Assembly: GCA_030453295.1 (NCBI GenBank)
Contig: JAKDKQ010000002.1
Span: 1-58,297 of the forward strand
Direction of reading: 5' to 3'
DNA length: 58,297 bases
From: Janibacter sp.
GTDB lineage: Bacteria; Actinomycetota; Actinomycetes; Actinomycetales; Dermatophilaceae
Shown here: positions 5,043 through 28,702 of the stretch, one piece after another
Position numbering within the stretch: position 1 is the first letter of the stretch
How the letters are laid out: each line of letters begins with the position of its first letter
Position numbers and translations under genes: made by a program
Notes under the pieces: model-generated
Seen by the model: only the letters and a program-made list of their open reading frames with translations
Told to the model about the DNA's origin: nothing
The model's database searches: none

Positions 5043-6447
5043 TCAGACGCTGGCCAGCACTTCAATGCGAGAGTCGAATCCACGGGCGAAGTGTCTTGGG
5101 CGAACGACGAGTCTCGAAACGAGCGCGTCGATGATGACGCGTTGGCGACTGATCGTGAGCGACTCGATCGCAGGAGCGGCGTCCGGGTATCGCAGGAGGA
5201 CTTGGTCTCGGAGGTGGCGATTGAGCTCAGTCGCACACTCTTGAACAATGAAAGCCGGGCGGGCACGCTGAGTGAGGAACGTCTCACGCGTGATCATTGC
5301 AGCGCCGTATTGCGCTGCAACCTCGCGAAGCTCTGACGTCGCGGTCTGAAGCGCGGCGAGGAGCGACGTTGGACTGCTCAGCCGTGCGTATCGGATCGAG
5401 GCGTTGCGGATCCGCGAGAGTTGCCCAGTAATGGCCTCGTCGAGTTGGTGCATGTCGACCGTCACTTGGCCGCAGGAGGTGGGTTGTGCCTTGCATCGGT
5501 AGATGCGTTGCCCCCGGTGCGTGACGGCGCTAACGAGACGGTTACTGCAAGTACCGCAGCGGGCTATTGCACCCAGAAGCGTCGCTGACGATCGAGTGGC
5601 GTTGCGGCCCGGCGCAATCTGTAGCGCGCGGATCAACGCTGATTCATCTGGACTGACGATCCGGTCCCAAAGGCCTTCGTGCGGCCCGCGCCGATGGTGG
5701 AGCCTGCCACTGTTTAGAACCGATGCCACAGTCGTCGCTCCCCATGTCGTAACTCTGGTTGGTGCGGGGATGCTCGCGACGGTGAGTTCTCGGGCGATCG
5801 CGGTGACAGATAGTCCGGTGAGGTAGTCATCGACAACGCGGCGAATGACCATGCTTTCGCGTTGATCGAGGGACCCGTCATCCCGATACCCGTAGTGGCG
5901 TCCGCCGTGAAGCAGCCCACATTGGGCTCGTTGTTGCTGAGCGCGTGCCACACGGACACCCTTGTGGGCAGACTCGTAGTTGGCGAACGCGACGAGTTGT
6001 CGGGCGAAGAGGCGTCCTTCGTGGAGGTTGAGGTTGAAGGTGCCGCCCTGGACGGATTCGATCCTGATGGGTCGTGTGTCGAGGAGGTCGAGGAGTTGTT
6101 CGAGTTCGCGGGGGTTTCCGGTAGATGCGATCGAGATGCCAGACGATGACCGTGGTCGCTTCTCCGCACTCGAGACTGGTGAGGAGCCGCTGGTAGGCGG
6201 GCCGTGCTCGGTCCTGGTAGGCGGAGACGGCTTCGTCGATGAACTCGATCGTGTCGGTGTATCCGAGCTGGGCGGCCAGGGCGGCGCAGTCAGCGCGTTG
6301 TTGTTCGATGGAGGCGTGCTCGCTGGTGCGGTTGATAGAGATGCGTAGGTAGATCAGGTCGGTCGTGATGTGTATGGGCTCTCTCCGATGGACGCGACGC
6401 GCACGTGCGTCACTCGCCCAGGTGGAGGAGGGCGACCCGTGCTGCAC
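5043..6447 (-). pseudogene. Serine recombinase, frameshifted
   Basis: The N-terminal resolvase domain (LIYLRISINRTS, VIVWHLDRIYR) runs from about 6447 to 6118. The frame then shifts at a CGGAAACCCCCGCG tract. Dropping one A restores RNPRELEQLLDLL, matching RQPRELEDLIDLV in the neighbouring recombinase. The recombinase domain and zinc ribbon (CGTCSNRL ... CKAQPTSCG) continue in the other frame to 5043, giving about 468 codons in all. The start also looks damaged: GGAGAGA is followed by ATA where the family start is expected, and the only upstream start is a GTG at 6447 without a good ribosome site. It was once co-transcribed with 6457-7875. Confidence 0.8.
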
Positions 6448-6456
6448 AAGGCAGCG

Positions 6457-7875
6457 TCAGGGGCGGTAGGTGATTCGGACTCGTGTTCGATCGAAGCTGC
6501 GTCCGGGGTGACCGGGGACGATGGTGAGCTTTTTGACCAGGGTGGTGATCACCGCACGCCGGTCGATGGTGTCAAGGCTGTCCCACCAGGACGCCAGTGT
6601 GTCCGGGCTGCCGATGGGTGCTGCGTAGAGGGCGATGGCACCGCCTGCGGCGACAAGCTGCTGCTCGGCGTCGCGGAGCGACTCTTCCGCCGCGAAAAGC
6701 CCGGCCCGACGCTCACCGCCGGTGATGATGCGGGCTTGGTAGTCCTGGCTCAGTTGCCCGATTCGTGAGTTGATGTCCATGATTCGCCGAAGTGTGGCGG
6801 TCGTCGATTGTTCGCTGGCTGATGTGCGCGGGTGGGCGAGACGATTCAGGACACGTTGGGCGACATGTTCGTCCAGCGGGGTCGCGCTGATACTCAGTCC
6901 TCCGCGTTCTGGACGGGAGGGGTCCTTCTGGCAGGTGTAGCGCAGTGTCGGCGTAACGCCGGATGCGGAGGTGTGGCCGGTGATGGTAAGCCCGGCACCG
7001 CACTTGCTACACCGGGCAATCCCTCCGAGAAGGGAAGGACGTGCGGGGGCGATGCGGCGATGGGCAGGGTCGGCGAGGATCGCCCGGATCTGTTCGGTTT
7101 CCTCCGGGGTGATGACCGGCTCCCAATCGCCGGGGCCGAGGATCTCCCGCCCACCGGCGGGGTCTGCGCGAGTGCCGGGTGCATAGGCGCGCTGCCCCGA
7201 GATCCGTGCCGACGCCAGAACGCTGCGCACCGTGAACGGATGCCACAGCCCGGAGGTCCCCGTCCCAGCGCGTAAAGGCGGGATGTGGGAGCGGTTCAGC
7301 CAGGCGGTGATCGAGCGGATCGACTCGCCGGTGAGGAACCTGTCGGCCATCTGCCGGATCACTGCTGCTTGCTCCGGGATCAGCACGCCGCCGCGTCCGT
7401 ATCCGTACCGTGCGGGTCCGTGCCAGCGGCCTTGCTCTGCGAGGCGTTGGTTGGCGCGTTTGACGCGGTCGGATTTGTGGCCGGACTCGTAGGCTGCGAT
7501 CGCGACGAGTTGCCGGGCCATCAGCCGACCCTCCGTGGTGTTCAGATCGAACCCGCCACCGCGGACCGCTTCGATCCGTACCGGATGCTGCTCGACGAGG
7601 TCGATCAGATCCTCCAACTCCCGGGGTTGTCGGTAGAGGCGATCGACATGCCACACGATGATCCGTGAGACTCCGGCACGAATATGGGCGACCAGGGTGT
7701 CGTAGCCGGGGCGTCGGCCACCGTCGAACGCGGACACGTCGTTGTCGATGAACACCTGTGGGTCGGCGAAACCGAGCCGGTCGGCGAGGCTAAGGCAGTC
7801 CTCTTGCTGACGGTGCACGCCGGCCTGCATGCCAGTGCGGTCCTGCGAGATCCGCACATACACCGCCGCGTCCAT
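6457..7875 (-). CDS. Serine recombinase with zinc-ribbon domain
   Basis: The protein is 472 aa and appears intact. It has an N-terminal resolvase/invertase catalytic domain (AAVYVRIS with the nucleophile Ser in RIS, then IIVWHVDRLYRQPRELEDL). A recombinase domain (RYGYGRGGVLIPEQAAVIRQM), a zinc beta-ribbon (CSKCGAGLTITG ... YTCQKDP) and a C-terminal coiled-coil region follow. The layout matches large serine recombinases that integrate or excise islands and phages. GGAG precedes the ATG with suitable spacing. A second, broken paralogue follows 9 bp downstream, so the pair resembles the two-recombinase arrangements of cassette elements such as SCC. Confidence 0.92.
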   Translation of the reverse strand: MDAAVYVRISQDRTGMQAGVHRQQEDCLSLADRLGFADPQVFIDNDVSAFDGGRRPGYDTLVAHIRAGVSRIIVWHVDRLYRQPRELEDLIDLVEQHPVRIEAVRGGGFDLNTTEGRLMARQLVAIAAYESGHKSDRVKRANQRLAEQGRWHGPARYGYGRGGVLIPEQAAVIRQMADRFLTGESIRSITAWLNRSHIPPLRAGTGTSGLWHPFTVRSVLASARISGQRAYAPGTRADPAGGREILGPGDWEPVITPEETEQIRAILADPAHRRIAPARPSLLGGIARCSKCGAGLTITGHTSASGVTPTLRYTCQKDPSRPERGGLSISATPLDEHVAQRVLNRLAHPRTSASEQSTTATLRRIMDINSRIGQLSQDYQARIITGGERRAGLFAAEESLRDAEQQLVAAGGAIALYAAPIGSPDTLASWWDSLDTIDRRAVITTLVKKLTIVPGHPGRSFDRTRVRITYRP

Positions 7876-8030: not shown

Positions 8031-8693
8031 CTATGGCAGCACAATCCACACGTGGTCAAGACGAATGGTGAGGTCGGACGCCCGATCATGGGATGAACTT
8101 AGCCACTCGCTGTTGGTATTGGTTTTCTCTGGAACCAACTCATGACCCGCGCCCATCAACTTGTGCGTGTTCACATATCCGTTCACACGCGGCTGGAGAC
8201 CAGCAGTGGTCGGCTCCTGCACGTAGCCGACCATCATGCCCCAGCTTTCGTTGGCGCCGTAGGTTGAGCTGACGAATCTCGCCATTCCGTCGTAAACGTA
8301 GGCTCGACCGAGACTCGCAGTGTCGGTGAGGCGCTTAGCCTCGAGGAGGACGCCGCCGCCGCGCACAGAGATGCGGAGGTCTGGCCGCGCGGCGCCAGTC
8401 ATTGACTCCGTTCCGTTCAACATCCCGGGCGTGAGAACGATGTTCTCGATGTTCACCTCAAGCGGATAGAAACGACTCTCGCTGCGGCGCGCGTCGATCA
8501 GCCAGCGGAAGAGTTGGCCGCTGCAGTTGACCTCTGCCTTGTCGAAGGTATGCCAGCCGTTGACGGCCCATCTAGCCAGCGCGTCACCTACGAGGTCACC
8601 CACCAGCTCCGGGAGCCGTCGAACGGCACGGTTGTGTATGTGTTCGTTAATTCGGCCGGATACTCGGTCGAAGGCTCGCTCAAGCACGACCAT
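8031..8693 (-). CDS. PD-(D/E)XK-type nuclease, partner of the adjacent DNA methylase
   Basis: I place the start at ATG 8693, which overlaps the methylase stop by 14 bp. The longer ORF start at 8759 would overlap it by 80 bp. The result is 220 aa. Residues about 118-135 read ARPDLRISVRGGGVLLEAKRL, a good PD-(D/E)XK core (Asp, then E-x-K). No membrane segment is seen. Overlap with the methylase gene indicates coupled translation and a restriction role for the pair. Which protein supplies target recognition cannot be told from sequence. Confidence 0.72.
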   Translation of the reverse strand: MVVLERAFDRVSGRINEHIHNRAVRRLPELVGDLVGDALARWAVNGWHTFDKAEVNCSGQLFRWLIDARRSESRFYPLEVNIENIVLTPGMLNGTESMTGAARPDLRISVRGGGVLLEAKRLTDTASLGRAYVYDGMARFVSSTYGANESWGMMVGYVQEPTTAGLQPRVNGYVNTHKLMGAGHELVPEKTNTNSEWLSSSHDRASDLTIRLDHVWIVLP

Positions 8694-11562
8694 CTCGCAC
8701 GTGTGCGTGCTGGCTCCGCAGGAGCGCGTCGAATACATCGGAAGCGTCAGTGCTGGCATCGCTGACCATCCAGTTCGTGCGACGATTCGGCTTGACGATG
8801 TGGACCCGCTCGTTGTCGAGGATCACGGCTTGCGGCTCGACGATCGTCGCTGACGAGAGAGACTCGTCGAGCACCGTCTCCTCCGCACTAAGGAGGTTGT
8901 CGACTGTGAACCGGGATTCGATCAATGGTGTGTCGACAGCTTCGACGTGGGTACATGTCACGCGCGCGAAGCCGTTGGTCGTCTCGCTCAGCTGCACAGT
9001 CCACGTGCCCAGATCGAGGTCGTCCATGTGTCGCTTCAGAGCGCGTGCGTAGTTCTCGAAGGCTGAGTGATCTGGCGCCTCGTAGGCCTTCGAACTGGGT
9101 CCGGCCTGCAGCTCTGACAACCTGATGGTGAGGGCGTCCGTGATCAGCTGTCGTTCGTCGTTCGTCAGCTTGTAGACCTCTTGTTCTACGACGTGATCGA
9201 CGGCCTTACGCCACGAGTCGTCGATGACGCCTTCAACGATGTCGCTGAGCGTCGACACGGCAACGGCACTGAGGCTGGGCAACGGCAGGCTCAGCCATTC
9301 GCGCTGGTGTAGCTGTTCACGCTCGACGCCCCACGAGCTCGCGGTCATGAGATACCAGTACTGCGCGACGGAGGAATTGAGTACGGCCGCGACCGCACGC
9401 AATGCGGATGCGTCCTCATTAGGCCCGGCAAGCGCGAACAGGCCGTCGGTGAAGCTGGTGTCGTACGGGACGAAAGCGGCCATCGGCGTTGTACTGAAGC
9501 CTTTCCGCATGAGCACATGCGGAGCCACGTAGATTGCGTTCGCGCGCGGACGGTGCATTACGGACGCGGTAACTGGCGCCCCGAGAGAGTCTTCCGATGG
9601 AGCGTTCATCGCGAGGAGTGCTTTCGTGGCCAGGTGAGGTAGGCGGTGAAGATGGGTGGCGTCGTTCTCATCGCCGTTCTTCACGATCTGATAGCCCGCA
9701 CCCATGTGCCAGCCGAGGGTTTTGGCCCGCGAATCGAGCGTCTCGAACGTCCGTCGGAGGTGCGCCACGAGGTCTAGGTCTTTCGGGCCTCCCCACAGGA
9801 GGGTCTTCCAGATCGACGGGTCCGCCTGTGCGCGTGAGCGGGCGACCATCTGGATATTCTGCTGAGGGATGGCAATGCCGTCGATGATCTCGGAGATAGG
9901 GGTACGGCGGGGCGACACGTGTAGCAATTGCTCACGCGGCGACTCCGTGTCCGCCCCAAAGATCACGACGGCTGCGGGGCTCGAGGCGCCGAAGAGCTCC
10001 TTGCGGAGCGGCGACAGGTCGATGACCGTTTGGACATCCAGCTCCCGGAAGAACTCCAGACGGAAACGGTCGGCAGAGCTGCCGCGGTTGTGTAGGACGG
10101 TCTTCGCGGGGAGGACCAACCCAGCCACGCCGCCCGGGCGGAGCATCTCTGCTGCCTTCCAGATGAAAGGCACGGCGATCTGTCGGTCGGGTGCCTGACG
10201 TTCTCGGTCCTCTAGGTATTTGCTCGCGGCCGGGGTGAGTGAGCTCTGCCACGGTGGATTGCCTGCGATCACGTCGAACCGACGGTCGCTGAGCGCGTTA
10301 GCCTCGAAGGAGTCGGAGACTACCAGGTTCCTGCCTACGAGGTCAGGCAACCTCACCTCGCGCCAAATCGTTCGTGGGTCAACGTGCTCGAGTAGGGCAA
10401 GGTAGAGACCGAAGGCTGTCACCCCGATGGCGTCGGCGTTTCGGTCGATGCCGAAGATGGATTCGACGAGCAGTGTGCTGAGCTCTTCGTAGTTGGGTGT
10501 GGACCTTGTCTGTGCCTTGCGTTGATGCACGAGTCTGCGGAACGCCTCAGTTAAGAAGATGCCCGAGCCGCACGCAGGGTCCAGCACCGTCGGTGCGACC
10601 GGTCCGGTGAACGAAGGAAGCAACTCATCGAGGACGAGATCCACCACGCGCCGCGGGGTGTAGTACGCGGCATCGTTCTTCTGCTGGGGTGCGAGGAGCT
10701 GCTCGTAGATCGAGCTGATGAGTTCCGGTGGGATGATCGCGAAGTCGTAGCGCCATAGAGGAATCTGCCCCGTCTCGAGGTCAGCACCGTGAAAGAAGTC
10801 GGAAAGAACGCGGAGCGCGTTGTCCGGAAGCGGCCGTGTGAGGACGTCCCGCCGGAAGACATCTCCGTTGAAGTGATCGGACATCGCCGCGAAGAGGGCG
10901 GAGACAGCGTCCCATCCTTCAGTGAGCGCCGCTTCGAGCGACTCAGGCTGTTTGAGTTCGCGCAGATCCTGCGGTTGGAGGATACGGCGGTCTTCGAGGT
11001 AGCGAACAAAGATCGAACGGCCCAGAAGCGGCTCGATCTCGTCTTCGTGCACGCCGGCCGAGAGCAGACTAGAACGCACGGTACGGAGGTTGCGCAGCAG
11101 TAGATTGTCTACCCGATTCTGAGTGTCGAGCTGCTTTCTGCGACGACGCGCCAATCTGCCCGACTCGACGCTGAATCGCGTGAAGTCGGCGAACACCGTG
11201 GCGAGCTCCTGGCCACGGTGTGCCTCTGCCAGCAGCGCTGCATCGGGTCTACCTGGTGTTTGCGCGGTGTTGCAGCTGAGCGCCAGGACCTCCTCCGACG
11301 TCGTCGCGATCAAGATCGGGACCCTGCCGTAGTTCCAGAGTCGTCGGTGCGCGTTCATCGCGTCGTCACGGGTGTCAGCGGCGATGAAAGCTACAACGGG
11401 CACGGCGCCCTTGAAGAACGCTGCCGTGACGCCGCACTTCTCCTGAAGGTCACTCCAGACCATCCCGCGGACGCCCGGTGCGACCGGATCATCGACATAC
11501 CCTTGCGAGTCGCGATAGCCGAGCTTCCCGACGAGGTCATCGAGCATGGATTGCGCTGTCAC
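8680..11562 (-). CDS. N6-adenine DNA methylase, Eco57I/type IIG-like
   Basis: The start is set at GTG 11562, preceded by GGGAGGTGG at ideal spacing. The track start at 11676 has no ribosome site. This gives 960 aa. Residues about 1-320 are an N-terminal domain of unclear activity. The SAM-binding motif DPACGSGIF lies near residue 325, the catalytic NPPW near 435, and the remainder is probably the target-recognition region (SSWGVEREQLHQREWLSLPLPSL). It is followed by an overlapping nuclease gene on the same strand. It would methylate host DNA in a restriction system. Whether the N-terminal domain is itself a nuclease is open. Confidence 0.87.
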   Translation of the reverse strand: MTAQSMLDDLVGKLGYRDSQGYVDDPVAPGVRGMVWSDLQEKCGVTAAFFKGAVPVVAFIAADTRDDAMNAHRRLWNYGRVPILIATTSEEVLALSCNTAQTPGRPDAALLAEAHRGQELATVFADFTRFSVESGRLARRRRKQLDTQNRVDNLLLRNLRTVRSSLLSAGVHEDEIEPLLGRSIFVRYLEDRRILQPQDLRELKQPESLEAALTEGWDAVSALFAAMSDHFNGDVFRRDVLTRPLPDNALRVLSDFFHGADLETGQIPLWRYDFAIIPPELISSIYEQLLAPQQKNDAAYYTPRRVVDLVLDELLPSFTGPVAPTVLDPACGSGIFLTEAFRRLVHQRKAQTRSTPNYEELSTLLVESIFGIDRNADAIGVTAFGLYLALLEHVDPRTIWREVRLPDLVGRNLVVSDSFEANALSDRRFDVIAGNPPWQSSLTPAASKYLEDRERQAPDRQIAVPFIWKAAEMLRPGGVAGLVLPAKTVLHNRGSSADRFRLEFFRELDVQTVIDLSPLRKELFGASSPAAVVIFGADTESPREQLLHVSPRRTPISEIIDGIAIPQQNIQMVARSRAQADPSIWKTLLWGGPKDLDLVAHLRRTFETLDSRAKTLGWHMGAGYQIVKNGDENDATHLHRLPHLATKALLAMNAPSEDSLGAPVTASVMHRPRANAIYVAPHVLMRKGFSTTPMAAFVPYDTSFTDGLFALAGPNEDASALRAVAAVLNSSVAQYWYLMTASSWGVEREQLHQREWLSLPLPSLSAVAVSTLSDIVEGVIDDSWRKAVDHVVEQEVYKLTNDERQLITDALTIRLSELQAGPSSKAYEAPDHSAFENYARALKRHMDDLDLGTWTVQLSETTNGFARVTCTHVEAVDTPLIESRFTVDNLLSAEETVLDESLSSATIVEPQAVILDNERVHIVKPNRRTNWMVSDASTDASDVFDALLRSQHAHVRDGRA

Positions 11563-11668
11563 GACCACCTCCCGTGGGCTCGTATCCCAGCTTAGGGCGG
11601 CCCGGAGACAACGCCTGGTAACCACCCAGGAGTGGCGAATCGGTGTGCGCTGCGCGATCGGCGTCGGC

Positions 11669-11688
11669 ACCGACATGCACCGACATGC
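11669..11688. repeat. Tandem 10-bp direct repeat ACCGACATGC x2 upstream of the methylase gene
   Basis: Two adjacent exact copies of ACCGACATGC lie about 107-127 bp upstream of the methylase start. A 10-bp period places both on the same face of the helix, as in many operators. No matching regulator gene is adjacent. Confidence 0.35.
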
Positions 11689-11828
11689 AGTGACGACGCG
11701 AACACTCAGATGGCTTCAGGTGTCGTGAGTTGATCGACTTAGCCGTCGGCCGCCAGCGCCTCCATGGCGTCCCTGCGGGAGGGCCTACGCGGACAGAGGT
11801 GACTGCAGCCCTCCTCCTGGCACTCTGA

Positions 11829-11993
11829 TCAGTGGTGTTCCTCAAATGGGTCGATGACTGTGTGGACTCCGTGCAGGGGGCAGATGAATGAGATTCGCAT
11901 GCCTAGACCTTCTGCGTCGAGCGGTACTGGCTCGCAGTCGCGCCCGCATTCCGGGCATGTGCGGTACTTCTCGTCGGCGTCTAACTCAGCCAT
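11829..11993 (-). CDS. Small zinc-ribbon protein, 54 aa
   Basis: I choose ATG 11993 (MAELDADEKYRTC) because GAAGAAGGTG sits about 5 nt upstream. The track start at 12017 has no such site. The protein has two cysteine pairs or near pairs: CPECGRDC at residues about 13-20 and CPLHG near 41, with nearby histidines, so it probably binds one zinc. It lies between two restriction-modification genes on the same strand, 266 bp or more from each. The family is not recognised, and a regulatory or anti-self role is speculation. Confidence 0.55.
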   Translation of the reverse strand: MAELDADEKYRTCPECGRDCEPVPLDAEGLGMRISFICPLHGVHTVIDPFEEHH

Positions 11994-12261
11994 CACGTCA
12001 CCTTCTTCAGCCCGCAATCGTGCATGACCGATACGCCTGTCCAGGTCCGTACCTCGGAGTGTCCACCCTCGCGAACTTCGCTCTCACCTGGAGAGAAAGC
12101 GGGAGGCACCATGGATTCGTCAATGCTAGATGGTCAAAGTCGGGGCCAGGTCCCGTGAATCGTGAACAGCCCGCGTATACACGTGACATTGTGGAGGTAT
12201 TCCGCCGACTCCGGTGGGGGCTACTGAGAACCGAAGGCTCAGCGGTGGCCAAGCCGCATCC

Positions 12262-15200
12262 CTACTCCAGCGCTTCGAGTTCGGCGAAGTCGAAGCCGAC
12301 CTGGCCCGCCTGCTCGGCGCGCGCCTGTTTCGCAGCCAGCTTCGCTGTGGGAGTAGCTGTACTTGCATCCTCACCGAGCCCCGCGAGTTTCTCGACCGTC
12401 TCGCCAGCGAAGATGTCGGCCAGCAGCGTTGCCTGTTCTTCTCCGAGTTCGACCAGTAGGCCGGTGATGTTCAGCAGGTCGACAAGATCAGATGTGTACT
12501 CGGGCAGCCAACGATCGGGTTGGGTCTTCATAAGATCCGACACGCGGCGCTCGCCGATGACGGGGCGGGAGCGGTCGGCTCTTCGATATGAGAACCACTT
12601 GTCGAGGATGTTAACGCCATTGATCGCGTACTCGCGTATCGCGGGTGTCACCCGATCGATTACGCCGCTGCCGATGGTCAGCTGCTGCGAGGCTGCATCA
12701 TAACCGAGCGTATTCGGGAAGTCTGCACTCGTCGTCGGGATTGCTGTCACGTTCCTCGGTGTTCGCTCCGCTGGCAGGCGTGGCACCCCGCTAGTCGCTG
12801 CTGGGTGATTCCCCTGTTTCATGCGCTGCCCATAGGTCTGGTACCAGATGGACCGTCTTCCGATGGCGACGGCGCGGTCGAACAGGTCGACGTCGGCCGT
12901 GAACGGTACCCGCACTCCGGGGGTGGTCAGGTCGCCGGCGAAGGTGGTCGTGTAAGCGGGATGTGCAGTTACCGCGACGATATATGCAACGACCTCATCC
13001 GCGTTCGGCTCCCGACTATAGGCAGTAGTTAGCGCCGCGAACACTTCGGCGCGGACGTTCGGAGTGGTCGCCAAACCGTCCGCCCACAGGGGATACACGC
13101 GACCGCCGCGGCCCCCGTAATGGTCCATGTCAGGTGGAACGGCTGACACCGACACCGCCATTGCTCCGGTAGGTGCATCGACACGCGGGGCCGTCAGATA
13201 GACCTGTGAATCGGAAGCGATACCCCATAGCGTCGGATTGGGCCGGTTCAGTACCCGCTTATCGGGAATGATCCATTGCCGGTCGAGCGATCGGAAGGCG
13301 TACCGGACTGGCTGCTCGGCTGTTACGTCGGTGCCGATCGGATTCGCGTGCAGCGGGTATCCCGGCAGCGCCTCCTTCAAGGGTCTATCGACTGTAAGGC
13401 CGGCGCCCTCGCTGAAGAGCTCCCGCTGTCGGACTGTGTTCTTTTCACTCTGAAGAGCCTTGATGCGCTCGTTCAAAGTCCCCGCGTCGGGCGCGATAAC
13501 CCAGGTGCGACCGGGCATCACCCCGGAGCCGTCGTACGCGAACAGGTCACCAAGAAGCGGGTGCCGTGTCCAGCGCGCGTCGCCCACTGCAGTGAACGGC
13601 GCTCGCGGTGCCTCGGAGACGGCACTCCACCCATCGTCGTCGAGAGAGATGCTGGCGAGTTCCGTGAACTTGTCCTCGCGGTCGCCCGGAGTGAGAGTTC
13701 GCACCCTCACGGTGGCCGGTGCCGTGTTCCCTCCAGGGCGGCGAACGGCGATGACGATGCACACTGGGTGGGGGACGGCCTGGAAGATGCGTGTGTTCAC
13801 CGGGGGCATCAAGCCTTCGGGCGAGCAGTCGATGACGAAGATGTCCGTCGCCTGCTCCCGCATCTTCGCGCGCATCTGCTGGAAGCCGTCGCCGTCAAGG
13901 AAACCGGCGACGGTGATGAAGGCCACGATGCCGGGGGACTCTTTCGGTACCGAGTCGAAGACCTTCCAGGTAGCCCACCGCCAGAAGTACACGTAAGAGT
14001 TCCGCAGCTGCTTCACGTGCGGCCCGAGCTTCCACTCCTTGGGAGGGGTGAAGTCATTTAAAGGCACGAATCCGGCGTTGGCGCCGGTCTCGACCCAGCC
14101 GCCCATGCCCTTGGCCTTCTCCTTGTACGGAGGGTTGCCGAGAACAACGAGGATCTGCTCGTCGCGCTTCACACGGTCTGCCTGGCGGCGTGACTCTGCG
14201 ATCGGCTCATAAAACTGTCCGATCGTCGAGTACTCGGCGTTCGGGTCGCTAAGCGTGTCGGCGACATAGGTTCGCAGATGATCGGCGGTAGCGCCCGACC
14301 CGAGCGCGGTGAGCTCAGCGAGCAGCCGCAGCTGGGCGACAGCGTAGGGGCCGAGCTGAATTTCGAAGCCGATGACCTTCTTCAGTCGCTCGGTGAGTGC
14401 GGCTCCCTGCGAGGCAGGGCCGTAGTCGGCTGCGTGGCGCTCCGCGACTAGGCGCAGGGTTTCCAGCAAGAACGCGCCAGTCCCCATCGCGGGGTCGATC
14501 AACGTCACCGCCTCGTCGGCGAGACCAGCGGGCAGGTCCAGCAAAGTTCGTACTGCCTCGTCGGTCAGGTGCGTCATCGACTCGACCACAGGGATGGGTG
14601 TGTAGTAGCTGCCGGTCTGCTTCCGCAGGTCGCTGTCATACGTGGCGAGGAAGTCCTCGTAGAAGTAGAGCCATGCATCGCGGCGGCTGCCCTTCTCGAG
14701 CTTCGGCCAGTCGACGGCGGAGAGCACCCGCTTCGCTGTGTCGAGTACCGCTTTCAGTCCCGACTCGTCCTCCGCGACCGAGCCGAGCACCTGAAGCGCC
14801 CGACCGATCAACGAGTTGGTCGCTCCCAGCTTCTTTCCGATCTGATCGGTATCCTGCTCAATTGAGATGCCTTTTGCTCGGGCAATGAGCAAGCCGAACA
14901 TGACCGCCTGCGCGTACCCGTCCGCGAACTGCGCATCACTCGCGGTTGGGAACAGAAGGTTCCGCCAATCCTCCGCAGTCGAGCGCAACGTTTTCGCGCC
15001 GTCGCTCAGCTCGGCGACCACTTCGGCTCGGAGCAGCCGGCATAGGCGTGCTGACACGCGAGCAAGCTCACCGGCGTTCGCTGGAGCGATCGGGGTCCAG
15101 CTCAGGAATGACCGCAGCGTTCGCTCCAGCCAGTCGCCGGCAACCAGTGCAGCGCCAGCGGTCGCGACATCGCCGTCCAAGAATTCCACCCGGTCGACGA

Positions 15201-15594
15201 GTTCCCCGTTCTGCCACAGGGACCAGGACTGGGAGTCCGTGTAGAGGACGTTCGGGAGGAGGCGCAGGCGCTCGAACTGCGACTTGTCGTGACCTCGGTA
15301 CTTCCGCGGATCGGCACCCTTTCCGAGTGCCTTGATCTCGATGAAGCCTGTGAGCGCGTTGCCGATCGTCACAGCGAAGTCGGGGCGTGAGGAGATGTCA
15401 GCCATCTTCACTTCACCGATGACGTTCACCTCGGTGAAGTCGAGCGCTTTGGCTGCCGAACGAAGAAACGTGTCTAGTGGTGTCCGCAGTTGGTCCTCGG
15501 GATCACCGGTGACGACAGGCTGCGCCAGCTTTTGCTTCAGCTCGACACCCAACGCGCTGACGGCAGCGGCAACGGTGTGTGACATGTGCCTCAC
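12262..15594 (-). CDS. Single-chain restriction-modification enzyme (N-terminal nuclease plus N6-methylase)
   Basis: The protein is 1110 aa. Residues about 60-90 carry SRPDFAVTIGNALTGFIEIKA, a PD-(D/E)XK core. The SAM motif DPAMGTGAFLLE is near residue 365 and NPPYKEKAKG near 483, with a long C-terminal half containing VAFITVAGFLDGDGF and target-recognition-like sequence. No helicase motifs are seen, so this fits type IIG/IIL rather than type ISP. The start is GTG 15594 or ATG 15585; neither has a strong ribosome site. An unknown gene lies 184 bp upstream on the same strand. It would both methylate and cut DNA. Confidence 0.9.
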   Translation of the reverse strand: MRHMSHTVAAAVSALGVELKQKLAQPVVTGDPEDQLRTPLDTFLRSAAKALDFTEVNVIGEVKMADISSRPDFAVTIGNALTGFIEIKALGKGADPRKYRGHDKSQFERLRLLPNVLYTDSQSWSLWQNGELVDRVEFLDGDVATAGAALVAGDWLERTLRSFLSWTPIAPANAGELARVSARLCRLLRAEVVAELSDGAKTLRSTAEDWRNLLFPTASDAQFADGYAQAVMFGLLIARAKGISIEQDTDQIGKKLGATNSLIGRALQVLGSVAEDESGLKAVLDTAKRVLSAVDWPKLEKGSRRDAWLYFYEDFLATYDSDLRKQTGSYYTPIPVVESMTHLTDEAVRTLLDLPAGLADEAVTLIDPAMGTGAFLLETLRLVAERHAADYGPASQGAALTERLKKVIGFEIQLGPYAVAQLRLLAELTALGSGATADHLRTYVADTLSDPNAEYSTIGQFYEPIAESRRQADRVKRDEQILVVLGNPPYKEKAKGMGGWVETGANAGFVPLNDFTPPKEWKLGPHVKQLRNSYVYFWRWATWKVFDSVPKESPGIVAFITVAGFLDGDGFQQMRAKMREQATDIFVIDCSPEGLMPPVNTRIFQAVPHPVCIVIAVRRPGGNTAPATVRVRTLTPGDREDKFTELASISLDDDGWSAVSEAPRAPFTAVGDARWTRHPLLGDLFAYDGSGVMPGRTWVIAPDAGTLNERIKALQSEKNTVRQRELFSEGAGLTVDRPLKEALPGYPLHANPIGTDVTAEQPVRYAFRSLDRQWIIPDKRVLNRPNPTLWGIASDSQVYLTAPRVDAPTGAMAVSVSAVPPDMDHYGGRGGRVYPLWADGLATTPNVRAEVFAALTTAYSREPNADEVVAYIVAVTAHPAYTTTFAGDLTTPGVRVPFTADVDLFDRAVAIGRRSIWYQTYGQRMKQGNHPAATSGVPRLPAERTPRNVTAIPTTSADFPNTLGYDAASQQLTIGSGVIDRVTPAIREYAINGVNILDKWFSYRRADRSRPVIGERRVSDLMKTQPDRWLPEYTSDLVDLLNITGLLVELGEEQATLLADIFAGETVEKLAGLGEDASTATPTAKLAAKQARAEQAGQVGFDFAELEALE

Positions 15595-21419: not shown

Positions 21420-22415
21420 ATGGTCACGATCACCTCTCTCGCCAAGGACGAGCGGACCGCCAGGGTCGCCCTCGCCGCCACGCTGGAGACAGATGACTCG
21501 GTCACGGGCAGGCTCGTGGCAGCAGTCGGCGCGGTCGAGGCCGTGCGCCTGGCCGCAGGCACCGGTGCGTTCCCGAAGAAGGTCGGTGCGGTTGAGGGCG
21601 AGCTGTGGCGGAAGAAGGTCGGCCCTCGTCTTGATGCGCACACGGTCATGCGGGCACTGTCCGAGACCGACCGGTTGGGGCTCCGCATCATCGCGCCCGG
21701 TCAGAGCGACTGGCCAAGCAGCCTGAACGACCTGGGCGATCGTGCGCCGACCGTCCTGTGGGTGCGCGGGGCCGGTTCGTTCCTCACTGCGCCGCTTCAG
21801 GATCGGGTGACGATCACCGGCGCCCGCGCAGCGACCGGGTACGGAGAGCACGTCGCCGGCGAGCTCGCCTCCGATCTGGCGAGTACCGAACGGATCGTCG
21901 TCGCTGGCGGTGCCTACGGCATCGACAGGGCCGCCCACAGCGCCGTCTTGGCTGTGGGCGGGCAGACGATCGCGGTGCTCACGGGCGGCCTGGACCGTCT
22001 CTACCCGGCAGGCAACCATGAGCTGCTGGATCGCATCGGGGACGTTGGCCTACTCGTCAGCGAGATGGCTCCCGGTGCCACGCCGACCAAGTGGCGCTTT
22101 CTCGCCCGCAATCGCATCCTGGCCGCTATCTCGGGTGCGACGGTGATCGTGGAGGCCGGCTACCGTTCGGGCTCGCTCAACGTTGCCGCCCGCGCCGCCC
22201 AGATCGGCCGCCCGGTCGGCGCGGTTCCCGGTCCTATCACCAGCGCCGCGAGCTCAGGCGCTCACCGACTGCTCCGCGAAGGCATCGCTTCCCTCATCAC
22301 CGATGCCGACGATGTCAATGCCCTCACTCGCCCGCCCGCCGCAGCCGGCGGGCGAGTGTTTGAGCATGACGCCGGGGTCGCCCACTCCGCGCGTCCTTCG
22401 GGACGTTCGTTGTAG
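21420..22415 (+). CDS. DprA/Smf-like DNA-processing protein
   Basis: This 331-aa protein has the Rossmann-like DprA domain: VTITGARAATGYGEHVAGELASDLA, VAGGAYGIDRAAHSAVL, GGLDRLYPAGNHELLDRI and FLARNRILAAISGATVIVEA. Chromosomal DprA loads RecA on incoming single strands. A copy on a conjugative element may do so for the transferred strand. GGGAGC precedes the ATG. The last 30 residues are unusual because they cross a 12-bp GC hairpin at 22325-22358. Confidence 0.88.
   Translation: MVTITSLAKDERTARVALAATLETDDSVTGRLVAAVGAVEAVRLAAGTGAFPKKVGAVEGELWRKKVGPRLDAHTVMRALSETDRLGLRIIAPGQSDWPSSLNDLGDRAPTVLWVRGAGSFLTAPLQDRVTITGARAATGYGEHVAGELASDLASTERIVVAGGAYGIDRAAHSAVLAVGGQTIAVLTGGLDRLYPAGNHELLDRIGDVGLLVSEMAPGATPTKWRFLARNRILAAISGATVIVEAGYRSGSLNVAARAAQIGRPVGAVPGPITSAASSGAHRLLREGIASLITDADDVNALTRPPAAAGGRVFEHDAGVAHSARPSGRSL
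22325..22358. repeat. GC-rich hairpin inside the 3' end of the DprA-like gene
   Basis: CACTCGCCCGCC, a 10-nt loop, then GGCGGGCGAGTG form a perfect 12-bp stem followed by TTTGAG. It could act as a terminator or attenuator even though it lies inside the reading frame. Confidence 0.5.
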
Positions 22416-23742: not shown

Positions 23743-26700
23743 TTACAGCGACGGCCCAACGCGCTGAGTCCCTGTGCGCCGAGCGCCTTCCTGCTCTGTC
23801 TGCTCAGACTGGGCGAGGTTCTGTGCCCGGTCGAGCGCGGCGCGGGCGCGGGCGGCGTCGACCTTCTGAGCATCGGCCTCCGCGGCTGCGCCAAGCGGGA
23901 GCGGGTCGGCGATCCCGTAGCGATCCCGATACGCCGCGATGGTGCGTGCGGCATGTCGCCACATTTGCGCTGCTCGTCCCTGCTTCGGCTGCTTCCCGAG
24001 CACCACGATCCACTCGTGGCCCTCGCTGACTGCGGCATCAAGGATCGCGTCTGCGCGGGCTTCGATGAGATCGCGTCGCTCGGTGAGCGCCTGCCGGAAC
24101 TCGGCGCTCATGGTTCCGGTGGCCTCGGGGATGAGACCAGCGATCAGGCGTGGGGTCTTGCGGGCGCGCCCGGAGCCGGCGGGCCGCTCGGTTGCCTTGG
24201 CGACGCGGTAGTGGAGGACGGCGGCGATGTCGTCCGCATCGGTGAACCGTCGTGCTCGCACGAGGCGCGGTAGCAGCGTCTCGACCTCGTGGTGGTTCGC
24301 ATCGGCCCGGCGCAGCTCGGCGGTCAGCGCGCCGAATGTCGGAGAACTGATCGTGGCCTTTGCCTCCTCGTCAGTGAGGCCGGAGGCTTGGACGAGGTTC
24401 GCCCAGCGGTCGCGTTGCGCGGCGGCGGCGATCGTCTCGTACTCGGCAGCGAGCTGGGCGATCGACCCCCACGCCGCTTGCTCGGCGGTGATCGTCTCGC
24501 GGGCGGAGAGCTCGGCACCGACGTGCTGCAGAACCCCGAACAGCACTGACCTGGCCGTGGCCTCGATGTTGTCGCCAGGATGCGGACCGTCGTGGGAGTC
24601 GTCGGGCTTGTCGATGGCGACGTAGGCGAGGTTCGCGTCCCGGCCGCGGGTGAGGGCGACATACAGGTTCTCCCTCGTCATCGCCGCGTCGACCAGGACG
24701 TGTGATAGGTCGACCGTGATGCCCTGTGCCCGGTAGGAGGTGACGGCGTAGCCGAGGTCGAGGTGTTCGGCCACATAGTCGGCCGGGAGGATGACGGAGC
24801 CGCCCCACTTTTGGCTTGCGCGGCGGAGGGTGATGGAGCCGTCGTCGCGGACTTCGGTGACCGTCCATCGATCGCCGTTGCGGACCCAGCCGCGGCCGGC
24901 GCGCAGGCGGCGGTCGTTGTGCCGGGTGATGACCGAATCCCCGGCCGCCGCCCTCGTGCCGTCGTGCAGCTCGACCTCACGCAGCGCGTTCACGGTGCCG
25001 TCGAGGATCAAGTCTGTGCGGGCGCGCTGGTTGAGCGCGAGGACGGACTCGTTCGAGTCAGTGACCAGCACGGTCGCGCGTCCGGCGAGCCGGTCGGCGC
25101 GCCATGCGGTGTAGGCGGCGTCGATCATCGTCTCAGTCTCCCCACCGCGGATTCGGCCGTGCTTCATGTAGGTGTCGATGACCTCGGTGCGCCCGTGGCG
25201 CAGACCGAGCGAGGCGGTCTTCTCCCACAGGTTCGTGAACCGGTGGACATCGACCAGCTGAGGGGCGTCCTCCCGGTCGTGCACGAGCAGCGACAACGTC
25301 CCGCCGGCATCGACCGACTGGAGCTGCGCGTAGTCGCCCACCAAGAGGACCTTCGCCGCGGCCGTGGCCGCGAGGCTCGTAACCCGGTCGAGGGAGAGTG
25401 TGCCGGCGAGGGAGGCTTCGTCCACGATGACGAGCTGGCCCATGCGGAACGTCTCGCCGGTGCGCTCGTGCGTGTCCCACCACTTCGCGGTGTTCTCGGT
25501 CTGGATGCCGAGGTCATCGGCGAGGACCTGCGCCGCGACAGCGGAGGGCGCGAGCCCGACCACCGAGCCGGGGCCGTGCTCTGCCTCCCACGCCCGGCGA
25601 AGCGCATTCATCGCGGTCGTCTTGCCCGCCCCGGCCGGCCCCACGAGGACATCGACGACGCGGCCGGAGACGGCGACCATCGCCAGCGCAGCGGCCTGAT
25701 CGTCACCGAGCCTCTGTCCCTTCCGGTCGGGCCTCACTGTAATCCGCTCGACCGTCGCCAGCGGCACGGTCGGTCCGGTGGTGGTGCGGGCGCGCTCGAG
25801 GAGGCGGTCTTCGGCGGCCAACAGCACGTCGGAGGAGAACACGGTCGAGTGCTTCGGACGGAACACGCTGGTTCCGTCCGGTCGCTGGAACACCGCAGGA
25901 CTCGATGCGAGCTCGGGCGGCGTCAGCCGCAGCGACGCGGCCTCGGCGGCATCCACGACCAGGCCGACGACAGCCTCCCGATCCTCGGTGGTAGCGAACC
26001 GGTAGCGCATCGTCTGCCGGGCCGCCTCGGCGGTCAGGTTCCACCGCCGCCAGGTGGAGCGCTTCTCACCGACCGTCTCGACCACGCTTCCCCCGAGCGA
26101 GGCGATCACATCCAACGGCACATCGTCCGCGCGGAGCAGTAGCGGCTCCTCGTTCGCGGTCACCCTACGCGCCCACGAGGTCGCATCCGATCCGAGGATG
26201 CGACCGGCGCGCTGCCGCCACTCGGCGGTGAGATCGGCGAGCGAGTGCATTTCCTTCTCCGGTCGCGTGGTGAGGGTTGCCTGGGCGCGGAGCTTCATGA
26301 TCGTCGCCGGGGCCGGTCGCCGACCGTGTTTGGTGACGTACTGCTCGATGAGGCGGTCTGTCTCGGCGTCGATGTGCCGCGACCTCGTGGAGAACTCGGC
26401 CAGCAGCTCCTCCGGGACGCCTACGATCGCCCATGCCGGGTTGCGGTCGCGGCCCATGTCGCGGGCCTCCCACTCGACGCCGAACATGCGGGTCAGGTGG
26501 TCGGCGAACACCGCCTCGTGCAGCTCCGACAAGGCGACGGTCGCCGCGTGCATGGGTCGCCCGTCCAGGGAGCGCCACTTGCCGTCGAGGACGGTCTGCA
26601 CCTTGTTCGAGATGACGACGTGCGTGTGCAAGTGCGGGTCGCCCGCCCGGGAGTCGTAGTGGTCATACCCGGTTGCGATCAGCCCGTGGACGTCGACCTG

Positions 26701-27300
26701 TGCAACCGCGCCGTCGCGGCCGGTTGCGCCCGTGCGGGTGGCTGCAACCTCCCGCTCCATGTACGCAACCATCTCCGCAACCGCCGCGTGATGCGCCTGC
26801 CCGATCAGAGATTGCGTCCCCGCGTCCGCGACGGCCCACAGCACGGACGCAGACTTGGGGATGGAAAACGTGAAGTCGTATCCCGCAACCGCCCGCCGCG
26901 TGCCGCGCTCATCCTCCTCGGCCTCGATTGTGGCGACCGCCTCCGCGCGCGAAACCGGGCCCAGAGCAGGATCGAGGTCCGCGATGCGCTCAGCGACCCG
27001 CTCCGGGACAGGCTGGTACGCGGGGTAGGCGCGGCCCAGCGGCGTGCCGGTGATCGGGTCGCGGCCCATGCCGACGAGGAGCTGGAGCTGGGCTTCGGAG
27101 ACCTGATCGCCCTCCGTGATCTGGCCGCCGCCGAGGCCGGCGACACCGGCGCCGAGCCACCTGCCGGGCGGGGTGCCCTCGGCGTTGTAGTACCTCGTCA
27201 ACGGCGTCGAGAGCGACCTGTCGCCGTCACCTGCGGCGACCGTGCGCAGCAGGTACTTGTAGCCATCGCCCGCCGACATGACGCGCATCGAAACCGTCAC
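23743..27300 (-). CDS. MobF-family conjugative relaxase-helicase (TraA/TrwC-like)
   Basis: The protein is 1185 aa with a GTG start at 27300 after AGGGGCG. The relaxase domain has N-terminal tyrosines (GYKYLL, residues about 13-18) and the metal-binding histidines in DPHLHTHVVISNKV near residue 220. The SF1 helicase half has Walker A VGPAGAGKTTAM near 553, Walker B LVIVDEASL, and further motifs DYAQLQSVDAGG and YAVTSYRAQGITVDLSHV. It nicks the transfer origin, stays on the strand and unwinds it. The 274-bp upstream region with a hairpin is the best oriT candidate. Its strand is opposite to the transfer operon. Confidence 0.95.
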   Translation of the reverse strand: MTVSMRVMSAGDGYKYLLRTVAAGDGDRSLSTPLTRYYNAEGTPPGRWLGAGVAGLGGGQITEGDQVSEAQLQLLVGMGRDPITGTPLGRAYPAYQPVPERVAERIADLDPALGPVSRAEAVATIEAEEDERGTRRAVAGYDFTFSIPKSASVLWAVADAGTQSLIGQAHHAAVAEMVAYMEREVAATRTGATGRDGAVAQVDVHGLIATGYDHYDSRAGDPHLHTHVVISNKVQTVLDGKWRSLDGRPMHAATVALSELHEAVFADHLTRMFGVEWEARDMGRDRNPAWAIVGVPEELLAEFSTRSRHIDAETDRLIEQYVTKHGRRPAPATIMKLRAQATLTTRPEKEMHSLADLTAEWRQRAGRILGSDATSWARRVTANEEPLLLRADDVPLDVIASLGGSVVETVGEKRSTWRRWNLTAEAARQTMRYRFATTEDREAVVGLVVDAAEAASLRLTPPELASSPAVFQRPDGTSVFRPKHSTVFSSDVLLAAEDRLLERARTTTGPTVPLATVERITVRPDRKGQRLGDDQAAALAMVAVSGRVVDVLVGPAGAGKTTAMNALRRAWEAEHGPGSVVGLAPSAVAAQVLADDLGIQTENTAKWWDTHERTGETFRMGQLVIVDEASLAGTLSLDRVTSLAATAAAKVLLVGDYAQLQSVDAGGTLSLLVHDREDAPQLVDVHRFTNLWEKTASLGLRHGRTEVIDTYMKHGRIRGGETETMIDAAYTAWRADRLAGRATVLVTDSNESVLALNQRARTDLILDGTVNALREVELHDGTRAAAGDSVITRHNDRRLRAGRGWVRNGDRWTVTEVRDDGSITLRRASQKWGGSVILPADYVAEHLDLGYAVTSYRAQGITVDLSHVLVDAAMTRENLYVALTRGRDANLAYVAIDKPDDSHDGPHPGDNIEATARSVLFGVLQHVGAELSARETITAEQAAWGSIAQLAAEYETIAAAAQRDRWANLVQASGLTDEEAKATISSPTFGALTAELRRADANHHEVETLLPRLVRARRFTDADDIAAVLHYRVAKATERPAGSGRARKTPRLIAGLIPEATGTMSAEFRQALTERRDLIEARADAILDAAVSEGHEWIVVLGKQPKQGRAAQMWRHAARTIAAYRDRYGIADPLPLGAAAEADAQKVDAARARAALDRAQNLAQSEQTEQEGARRTGTQRVGPSL

Positions 27301-27574
27301 CGCCCCTGCCTCCGCTCGCTCGTCGGAGAGGTGAGCGACCGCCCGCCCGAAGGGCGGGCGACCTCGATCTGCAAGAGGCGTGGTGGCTCATGAGCGGTGG
27401 TGCGGAGTGCCGATCAAGAGGCAGGTCAGCGGCGGTATAGGCGCGGATGGAGCCGTGTCGCGACGGCATGAACCAGTCGGGTCTGGGACACGGCCGTGCA
27501 CCTGAAAGGTGACCAGTTCCGGCGAGATATCACACGTCTCGGTCGGGATGAACCGCCGACCTGTCAGGACGCTC
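27301..27574. other. Noncoding region between relaxase and methylase, candidate oriT
   Basis: This spacer lies directly upstream of the MobF relaxase start. It holds a 9-bp perfect hairpin (27340-27360) and no credible gene. Transfer origins are usually next to the relaxase gene, so this is the natural place. I cannot see a nick-site consensus that I would vouch for. Confidence 0.35.
27340..27360. repeat. Perfect hairpin CGCCCGCCC-GAA-GGGCGGGCG
   Basis: A 9-bp GC stem with a 3-nt loop lies 40 bp upstream of the relaxase start codon. It may be a relaxase recognition hairpin or a transcription attenuator. Confidence 0.6.
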
Positions 27575-28702
27575 ATGCCCGACCCTACGACAACTCTTGG
27601 TCATGGTGACCGACGTCGACGAGTCGGGTCACTATTTTCGGGCTACGGCGGCCTCGACCTTGCCGTAGAAGAAGTCTTCGACGGCGAGACGGCGTGGTTT
27701 TCCGAGTTCAGCCCGGCACCGACACGTGTGTTCGCCCACCATTGGCCGGGCGTGCCGAATCTGGGCGACATCACTACGATTGACTGGAACGCGGTCGAGC
27801 CCGTTGATGTGATCTGCGGCGGGTTCCCGTGCCAAGACGTGTCCACGGTCGGCAAGCGAGCCGGCCTCGCCCCCGGCACTCGGTCAGGCCTATGGGCGCA
27901 CATGGCTGAGGCGATCGACGTGCTGCAACCAGAGTGGGTCGTCGCTGAAAACGTGCGCGGACTGCTCTCAGCTACCGCGACCCGCCCAGCCGCAGAAGGA
28001 GATAGCACCGATGGACTCAACCCCGACACCGCTACGCTGGACGGCACCGTTCGCGGTGTGGAACCCGACCCGTGGCATCTGGGAGACCAGTCAGCTCGAC
28101 CTCTACGGGCACTTGGCGCCGTACTCGGCGATCTGGCCGACCTCGGGTACAACGCGCGCTGGCTCGGCCTACCCGCTTCCGACATCGGAGCACCCCACAC
28201 CCGCTTTCGCATCTTCATCCTTGCCCACCGCGCTGTTTCGGACCCCACTGGCGTCCGACGCCGCCCGCGGCGGGGAGACTCTAGACCGAGTACGAGCACG
28301 ACGCGGCACGATCGCCCTGTCCCATCAGCTCATCGACTTGGCGCTGAACGGTCCGCCGGATTCACGCCAGCAACAGGAACCGGAGCTGCTGTGGCCGCTG
28401 ATCGAGCAGTTCTTCGACGCTGGGGACGCTACGCCTTGGGAATTCGACGATGGGAACACCTCACCGGGCGCGGAGCCCCCGCACCCGCCCTCCTGAACGA
28501 TGACGGACAGTACCGTCCCGCGCCCCGCTTCGTGGAATGGCTGATGGGCTTGCCCGACGGATGGGTGACAGACCCCGAGCTCGAACTCACGCTGGCGGAA
28601 CAGCTCACCGCCCTCGGCAACGGCGTCGTGCCGCACCAGGCTGTCCACGCGCTCGGCGCCCTACACCGCGCCCATGTCGTCGAGGGCGGACTGGCACCCT
28701 GA
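27575..28702 (+). CDS. C5 cytosine DNA methyltransferase
   Basis: I choose ATG 27575 because CAGGAC lies at good spacing. The track start GTG 27509 and ATG 27548 are alternatives. The result is 375 aa. Motif I is VGSLFSGYGGLDLA, motif IV is VICGGFPCQDVS with the catalytic Cys, the ENV motif is VVAENVRGLL, motif VIII is ASDIGAPHTRFRIFILA, and motifs IX-X end in LTALGNGVVPHQA. No restriction partner is adjacent, so it is probably an orphan that protects the element from host restriction. A second reading frame is embedded within it at 28011-28496. Confidence 0.92.
   Translation: MPDPTTTLGHGDRRRRVGSLFSGYGGLDLAVEEVFDGETAWFSEFSPAPTRVFAHHWPGVPNLGDITTIDWNAVEPVDVICGGFPCQDVSTVGKRAGLAPGTRSGLWAHMAEAIDVLQPEWVVAENVRGLLSATATRPAAEGDSTDGLNPDTATLDGTVRGVEPDPWHLGDQSARPLRALGAVLGDLADLGYNARWLGLPASDIGAPHTRFRIFILAHRAVSDPTGVRRRPRRGDSRPSTSTTRHDRPVPSAHRLGAERSAGFTPATGTGAAVAADRAVLRRWGRYALGIRRWEHLTGRGAPAPALLNDDGQYRPAPRFVEWLMGLPDGWVTDPELELTLAEQLTALGNGVVPHQAVHALGALHRAHVVEGGLAP
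28011..28496 (+). CDS. Overlapping ORF embedded in the cytosine methylase gene
   Basis: A 161-aa frame lies entirely inside the methylase gene, in a different frame. AAGGAGAT sits 8 nt before its ATG, a much better ribosome site than the host gene has. The product contains NPTRGIWETSQLDLYGHL, WPTSGTTRAGSAYPLP, and RTPLASDAARGGETL then GTIALSHQLIDLALNGP. Over about 28250-28490 the third codon positions of this frame are GC-rich, as in genuine local genes, while those of the methylase frame are not. I recall similar sequences near methylases in actinophages but cannot verify that here. Function is unknown. Confidence 0.6.
   Translation: MDSTPTPLRWTAPFAVWNPTRGIWETSQLDLYGHLAPYSAIWPTSGTTRAGSAYPLPTSEHPTPAFASSSLPTALFRTPLASDAARGGETLDRVRARRGTIALSHQLIDLALNGPPDSRQQQEPELLWPLIEQFFDAGDATPWEFDDGNTSPGAEPPHPPS

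Follow-up and report, generated by a model that had tools for sequence, protein, structure and literature searches.

A probable two-part C5-cytosine methylase in overlapping frames: a conserved gene nested over the motif VIII codons of a methylase, beside a conjugative relaxase

The C5-cytosine DNA methylase gene found in a 58,297-nucleotide stretch of Janibacter sp. DNA (the window, whose first letter is position 1 for all coordinates given here) is dual-coding. A second gene, termed beta, lies in the +1 frame within the methylase frame, termed alpha; selection acts on both frames, beta has a start signal of its own, the methylase motifs are divided between the frames in recurrent ways, and the pair is linked to a relaxase gene. 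The best explanation, to which a probability of about 0.7 can be given, is that these overlapping genes make one alpha/beta C5-methylase, in which nested beta provides the recognition region in trans, beside a conjugative relaxase. Only rarely has selection been shown on both frames of long overlapping genes in bacteria, and the case made for such genes often rests on the length of an open reading frame.

Alpha spans 27509..28702 on the + strand and is identified by PF00145 (E=1.5e-32) and TIGR00675, with HhaI/HaeIII relatives in the PDB; its true start may be a later ATG, at 27551 or 27575. The catalytic motifs I-VIII by which the PF00145 class is recognized (SAM-binding, PCQ, ENV and VIII) are all present on the + strand, with motif I near 27626, PCQ at 27827-27835, ENV at 27947-27955 and motif VIII, DIGAPHTRFRIFILA, at 28181-28225, inside the overlap with beta. 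A motif IX-like segment, RFVEWLMGLP (28526-28555, +), and motif X, ALGNGVVP (28610-28633, +), lie downstream of the overlap; of the two motifs named in the initial claim, motif VIII is thus kept across the overlap and the final one comes after it. The region between motifs VIII and IX serves target recognition in C5-methylases. Unlike the usual single-chain C5-methyltransferase, alpha has no conserved VIII-IX target-recognition region in the same chain (protein identity 0.41).

Beta is a nested gene of 161 codons at 28011..28496 (+), which is +1 relative to alpha and runs from the ATG at 28011 to a TGA stop at 28494-28496; the sequence-only reading that pointed to this frame had its coordinates exactly. 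A Shine-Dalgarno sequence, AAGGAG (27996..28001, +), stands within alpha 9 nt 5' of the ATG, and in most loci of window-type relatives AAGGAG or close variants occur 5-11 nt ahead of the beta ATG or GTG, where the rest of the alpha spacer is variable. Beta of the actinophage loci starts with a GTG inside motif VI of alpha (GAGAACGTGAGAGGACTGCTCAGTGCC), where the ENVRGLLSA codons are GAG AAC GTG AGA GGA CTG CTC AGT GCC. The Arg codon of motif VI is AGA or AGG (AGR) in 45/50 actinophage loci with the GTG start there, compared with 59/913 of the other alpha Arg codons and 7/61 where beta starts elsewhere, a bias expected if the codon doubles as the Shine-Dalgarno sequence of beta. Judging from these codons, the codon choice in a catalytic motif looks to be set by the ribosome-binding site of beta.

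The phage "DNA methyltransferase" family phrog_1008 matches both proteins, with beta residues 10-89 aligned to profile positions 69-148 (E=9e-12) and residues 296-392, at the alpha C-terminus, to positions 222-324 (E=3e-30). This family is divided in the window between alpha and beta, and the finding of its middle on beta and its end on alpha is expected if one ancestral C-terminal half was split between frames. Beta had no match in Pfam or NCBIfam, to HNH and other nucleases included. A PDB sequence search with a beta profile returned only antibody chains at chance level, and a structure model of beta built from 3 sequences was useless (pLDDT 43). A deeper model of a beta of the split type (L063) reached pLDDT 72, with a confident N-terminal strand domain and a module region below 50; it had no fold match in the PDB, and its significant matches in BFVD were almost exclusively phage methylases.

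When the synonymous codons of alpha were reshuffled, a +1 open reading frame of at least 161 codons arose in 24% of trials, and the span 28011-28493 was stop-free in 8% of reshuffles. The length of beta is not significant and was dropped as evidence for it (P 0.24); since the open frame by itself proves nothing, the case for beta rests on relatives. The length alone would allow the +1 frame to be no gene but a side effect of the methylase reading in GC-rich DNA. In 28226-28345, however, the beta protein is conserved and that of alpha is not; contradicted by the comparative data, this explanation has next to no probability.

For the codon-phase test, 28 distinct alphas of the window type were aligned by codon, and the mismatch rate at each codon position was obtained. 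Ahead of the overlap the usual pattern is seen, with alpha position 3 having the highest mismatch (0.31-0.45). In the dual-coded core (28046..28225, +), where alpha reads LGDLADLGYNARW...GAPHTRFRIFILA through motif VIII and beta reads VWNPTRGIWETSQLDLYGHLAPYSAIWPTSGTTRAGSAYPLP, all three alpha codon positions are slow across the 28 relatives and both frames are constrained; the core is found in the same register in distant phages. The module LFRTPLASDAARGGETLDRVRARRGTIALSHQLIDLA of beta follows (28226..28345, +), with mismatches of about 0.5/0.2/0.09 at alpha positions 1/2/3, of which position 1 is the beta wobble and position 3 the beta second position, and with a protein identity of 0.80 for beta and 0.41 for alpha. 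Since the beta wobble varies here and alpha position 3 is slow, protein-level constraint in this stretch is on beta only, and alpha is an unconstrained, stop-free linker. Codon phase and synonymous reshuffles mark 28346..28405 (+) as a linker that is variable in both frames. In the beta tail, LIEQFFDAGDATPW...PPS over alpha WGRYALGIRRWEHLTGRGAPAP (28406..28493, +), the tail and the stop position recur in relatives, and in 28406-28465 the excess identity over synonymous reshuffles is the same for the +1 and +2 frames, so an independent constraint on the tail is not demonstrated. After about 28466, alpha position 3 mismatch rises to 0.5-0.68 and constraint is on alpha alone.

The dual region as a whole has 0 stops in 1680 codons of the +1 frame across relatives (null 15.6, minimum 8 in 40 trials), and its +1 identity is 0.70 against a null of 0.41 from synonymous reshuffles, compared with 0.57 against 0.44 in the upstream control region and 0.32 against 0.34 downstream; kinship among the sequences inflates such selection figures, for which the controls within the gene and the third frame serve as safeguards. 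Beta is open in relatives and its start is conserved, and the pattern of variation in 28226-28345 is that of the beta frame and not that of the methylase. The sequence-only proposal of two proteins from the same DNA is in this way strongly supported. Its picture of the two frames as constrained in different parts fits the beta-only 28226-28345 and the alpha-only stretch after about 28466, and fails for 28046-28225, which is constrained in both. The GC-rich third positions that it ascribed to the embedded frame and denied to the methylase hold in part: over 28226-28405 the GC fraction is 0.75 at beta position 3, and alpha position 3 has 0.57 and 0.40.

Through the beta-only stretch, alpha is stop-free in 43/44 distinct loci, where 20 were expected and 29 was the maximum in 300 trials with beta codons reshuffled synonymously. 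As the alpha frame is kept open beyond expectation, translation of alpha apparently runs on through codons whose amino acids are immaterial. The open frame also speaks against programmed frameshifting, by which a single polypeptide would shift +1 from alpha into the beta module and back to IX-X, in keeping with a conserved VIII-IX module in +1 and IX/X in frame 0. Two shifts would be required, beta has its own Shine-Dalgarno sequence and start ahead of motif VIII, and the conserved beta part opposite motif VIII could not join such a product, all of which makes this route highly improbable.

Homologues of beta were gathered from bacterial genomes (57 loci), 11 places in relatives and the organism's own genome, plasmids, phages and viral contigs, at least 198 of the last having a beta homologue among the matches listed and 80 being kept. 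Nearly all of these loci have motif VIII in the -1 frame directly over the beta N-terminal domain, the consensus of which is WNP..WET.Q..PYS.TWPTSGMTRNG.AY.LP. Because this first set was chosen by beta, with the ascertainment bias that this brings, loci were picked again by alpha motifs I-VI alone. At 58% identity or more, beta is present in 23/24 of them, the exception (L269) being broken, and 22/23 of the carriers have it in the +1 register, with a frame break in L259; beta was found in 0/6 of the more distant ordinary methylases picked by the alpha N-terminus alone. Actinophages, Methylorubrum and a Microcystis phage share the register, and the alpha/beta arrangement was found in hundreds of bacterial and phage loci.

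These counts bear on the possibility that beta is an out-of-frame mobile insertion in the methylase like the ShiLan HNH element, whose formal pattern is the same, the host frame being free of stops but without meaning where another frame codes (PMC11855218). Since beta is near-universal in the clade (23/24) and extends over conserved motif VIII, it is not to be taken for an insertion; with insertion-free alleles with intact flanks absent among the close relatives and the lack of a nuclease match in Pfam and NCBIfam also against it, the probability of this origin is close to nil.

The frame breaks seen before motif VIII in several copies count against the two-chain enzyme. One is in the second alpha/beta copy of the same genome (L009, G000:C433:7418-8314), where a break between motifs VI and VIII shifts both frames together, and similar breaks are found in L012/L014, L041, L056, L270 and L271; decay, phase variation or an error in assembly may lie behind them. 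Several genera share a set of near-identical copies (L001, L042, L043, L045 and L062) that has no continuous methylase N-terminus, motif I being out of frame before PDAPNLGDITT, with the rest of alpha and beta intact.

The methylase motifs are partitioned between the frames in three different ways. In type A, that of the window, alpha holds I-VIII, IX and X and beta holds the WPTSG domain and one LFRTP-type module, an arrangement that is clean in 33/52 distinct window-like loci; PTP-type modules are in the beta frame of 37/41 bacterial type-A loci and in the alpha frame of none of those. In type B, alpha has I-VIII, and IX and X lie in beta together with the WPTSG domain and PTP modules, as in Arthrobacter phages TaylorSipht and Chocolat, mycobacteriophages Ovechkin and Phanphagia, and the Leucobacter/Tessaracoccus loci L063-L065. 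In type C, alpha keeps X along with I-VIII, and motif IX is in beta beside the WPTSG domain and PTP modules; among the matches listed, this accounts for 40/68 loci with a recognised beta core, nearly all viral and including Microcystis phage Mwe-JY08 (L158). Position 3 is constrained over the overlap in type C too: in 44 diverse loci its mismatch is 0.5-0.66 around PCQ and 0.19 over ALGYDAEWHCI, in the overlap. In Methylorubrum extorquens AM1 (L156) the register is the same, and beta has, by inspection, a motif-IX-like segment.

As the beta frame of related loci carries motif IX or IX and X, a partner of the methylase, one of two roles offered by the sequence-only reading, is the best-supported function of beta, while for the other, an anti-restriction factor on its own, no evidence was found; anti-restriction is plausible only for the complete methylase next to the relaxase. 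The same motifs in the split and EcoHK31I-like relatives, together with the lack of a conserved VIII-IX region in window-type alpha itself, argue against beta being a real nested protein of another kind, such as a regulator, a stabiliser or a separate anti-restriction factor that overlaps the methylase. Such a protein would suit the absence of motifs IX and X from the window beta and the phage alphas that can hold PTP modules of their own yet keep beta, and the relaxase neighbour would fit a separate anti-restriction role; on balance it is unlikely.

Many phage loci have alpha with its own PTP modules alongside beta, so beta might do more than recognition. The window beta module is only weakly similar to these alpha-frame modules (E 0.03-0.06), and the term recognition module for it therefore rests mainly on position. 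Since phage modules occur in both frames and the WPTSG domain is constant, this domain may be the essential part of beta and the module the variable part. Between the WPTSG domain and IX, the related phages Ovechkin (L003) and Phanphagia (L006) differ in the number and kind of their PTP-type modules (many against two), possibly a reshuffled recognition array.

Natural two-polypeptide C5-methyltransferases exist, and a split between VIII and the target recognition domain (TRD) complements best (PMC3404938, PMC5944983). That beta, by position, contributes the VIII-IX region and that two-chain enzymes are known make a joint enzyme of alpha and beta, with trans-acting recognition, the favoured reading. 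In such an enzyme, alpha would provide catalytic motifs I-VIII, read through the beta module as a linker and then supply IX and X. Beta would be translated in +1 from its own ribosome-binding site inside alpha, to give the conserved domain WNP..WET.Q..PYS.TWPTSG opposite motif VIII and one LFRTP-type module, which in sequence order would take the target-recognition place between VIII and IX. Most likely, beta binds alpha in a complex and supplies DNA target recognition in trans, and the pair, with the MobF relaxase, probably methylates element or host DNA so that transfer survives restriction.

The relaxase in question is a TraA-type MobF relaxase/helicase (23743..27300, -) that lies divergently and directly upstream of alpha/beta, and a TraA homologue adjoins the pair in 46/66 bacterial loci; the alpha/beta pair is cargo of a conjugative element. 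Alpha DNA is identical in Propionicimonas, Sediminivirga, Microbacterium, Leucobacter, Leifsonia and an actinobacterial MAG (L027-L032), which argues for a very recent spread. PADLOC, run on alpha and other proteins of the window, gave defence-like genes at 1008-2827, 8680-15594 and 21420-22415 (RmrA-like and PDC-M36A-like, two type IIG restriction-methylase-like, and ShosA/DprA-like). Beside them, at 5043-7875, are two genes judged by eye to be large serine recombinase-like, and kdp-like genes occur from about 28960 onward; the recombinase-like and kdp-like genes are the probable boundaries of the element.

Taken more broadly, there are even odds that these loci form a widespread, unnamed class of C5-methylases, with an exchangeable recognition module in trans, a gene written over motif VIII codons, and motifs IX/X moved between frames in at least three ways. 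If true, overlapping frames and not domain fusion would set the architecture of the enzyme, and the window would stand for a third way of dividing the enzyme, with just its middle outsourced. Mobile elements of actinobacteria and phages of other phyla share a single conserved register, the gene contains its own control for chance, and the parts where one protein or both are important can be told from codon phase. With Pfam and NCBIfam giving no beta match, the findings suggest that hundreds of methylase loci have a partner subunit which annotation misses or misassigns, and a missed beta could account for possible failures of such a methylase when it is expressed from the annotated frame alone. 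The pairs would be natural split methylases, of the kind engineered for targeted methylation. In the literature covered, largely open-access papers and without the original study of EcoHK31I, no account was found of conserved dual coding, of motif traffic between frames or of the window partition.

Two-chain C5-methylases are already known. The ShiLan HNH element in phage methylases (PMC11855218) likewise has a coding frame hidden in a stop-free methylase frame, but is a homing endonuclease insertion, in contrast to window beta, a conserved partner over motif VIII with no HNH match. The tandem "DNA methylase" pairs of actinophages (phrog_1008; Ryadel 7/8, Priya 82/83, TaylorSipht 40/41), recorded as overlapping genes by some annotators already, have the same beta domain in +1 over motif VIII; their beta holds IX, X and recognition-like repeats, whereas window beta does not. 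The small subunit of M.EcoHK31I likewise comes from an out-of-frame gene inside that of the large one. M.AquI (CYCGRG) is split in the variable region, with the distal part and IX-X in the small subunit (PMC3404938), and is like the split type B loci L002, L003, L005, L006 and L063 in content; the window, where alpha keeps IX-X and beta overlaps it deeply in +1 across motif VIII, is not of this type. M.EcoHK31I (YGGCCR) is a two-polypeptide C5-methyltransferase with I-VIII and X in the larger subunit, where the predicted TRD was also placed, and IX in the smaller (PMC3404938). Its motif partition is that of type C (L158 and about 40 viral contigs among the matches listed), with beta nested in +1, a likeness of published motif layout, and E. 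coli genomes searched with L158 DNA yielded no relatives of this layout. The window differs from M.EcoHK31I and its type in that motif IX stays in alpha and beta is only the middle part.
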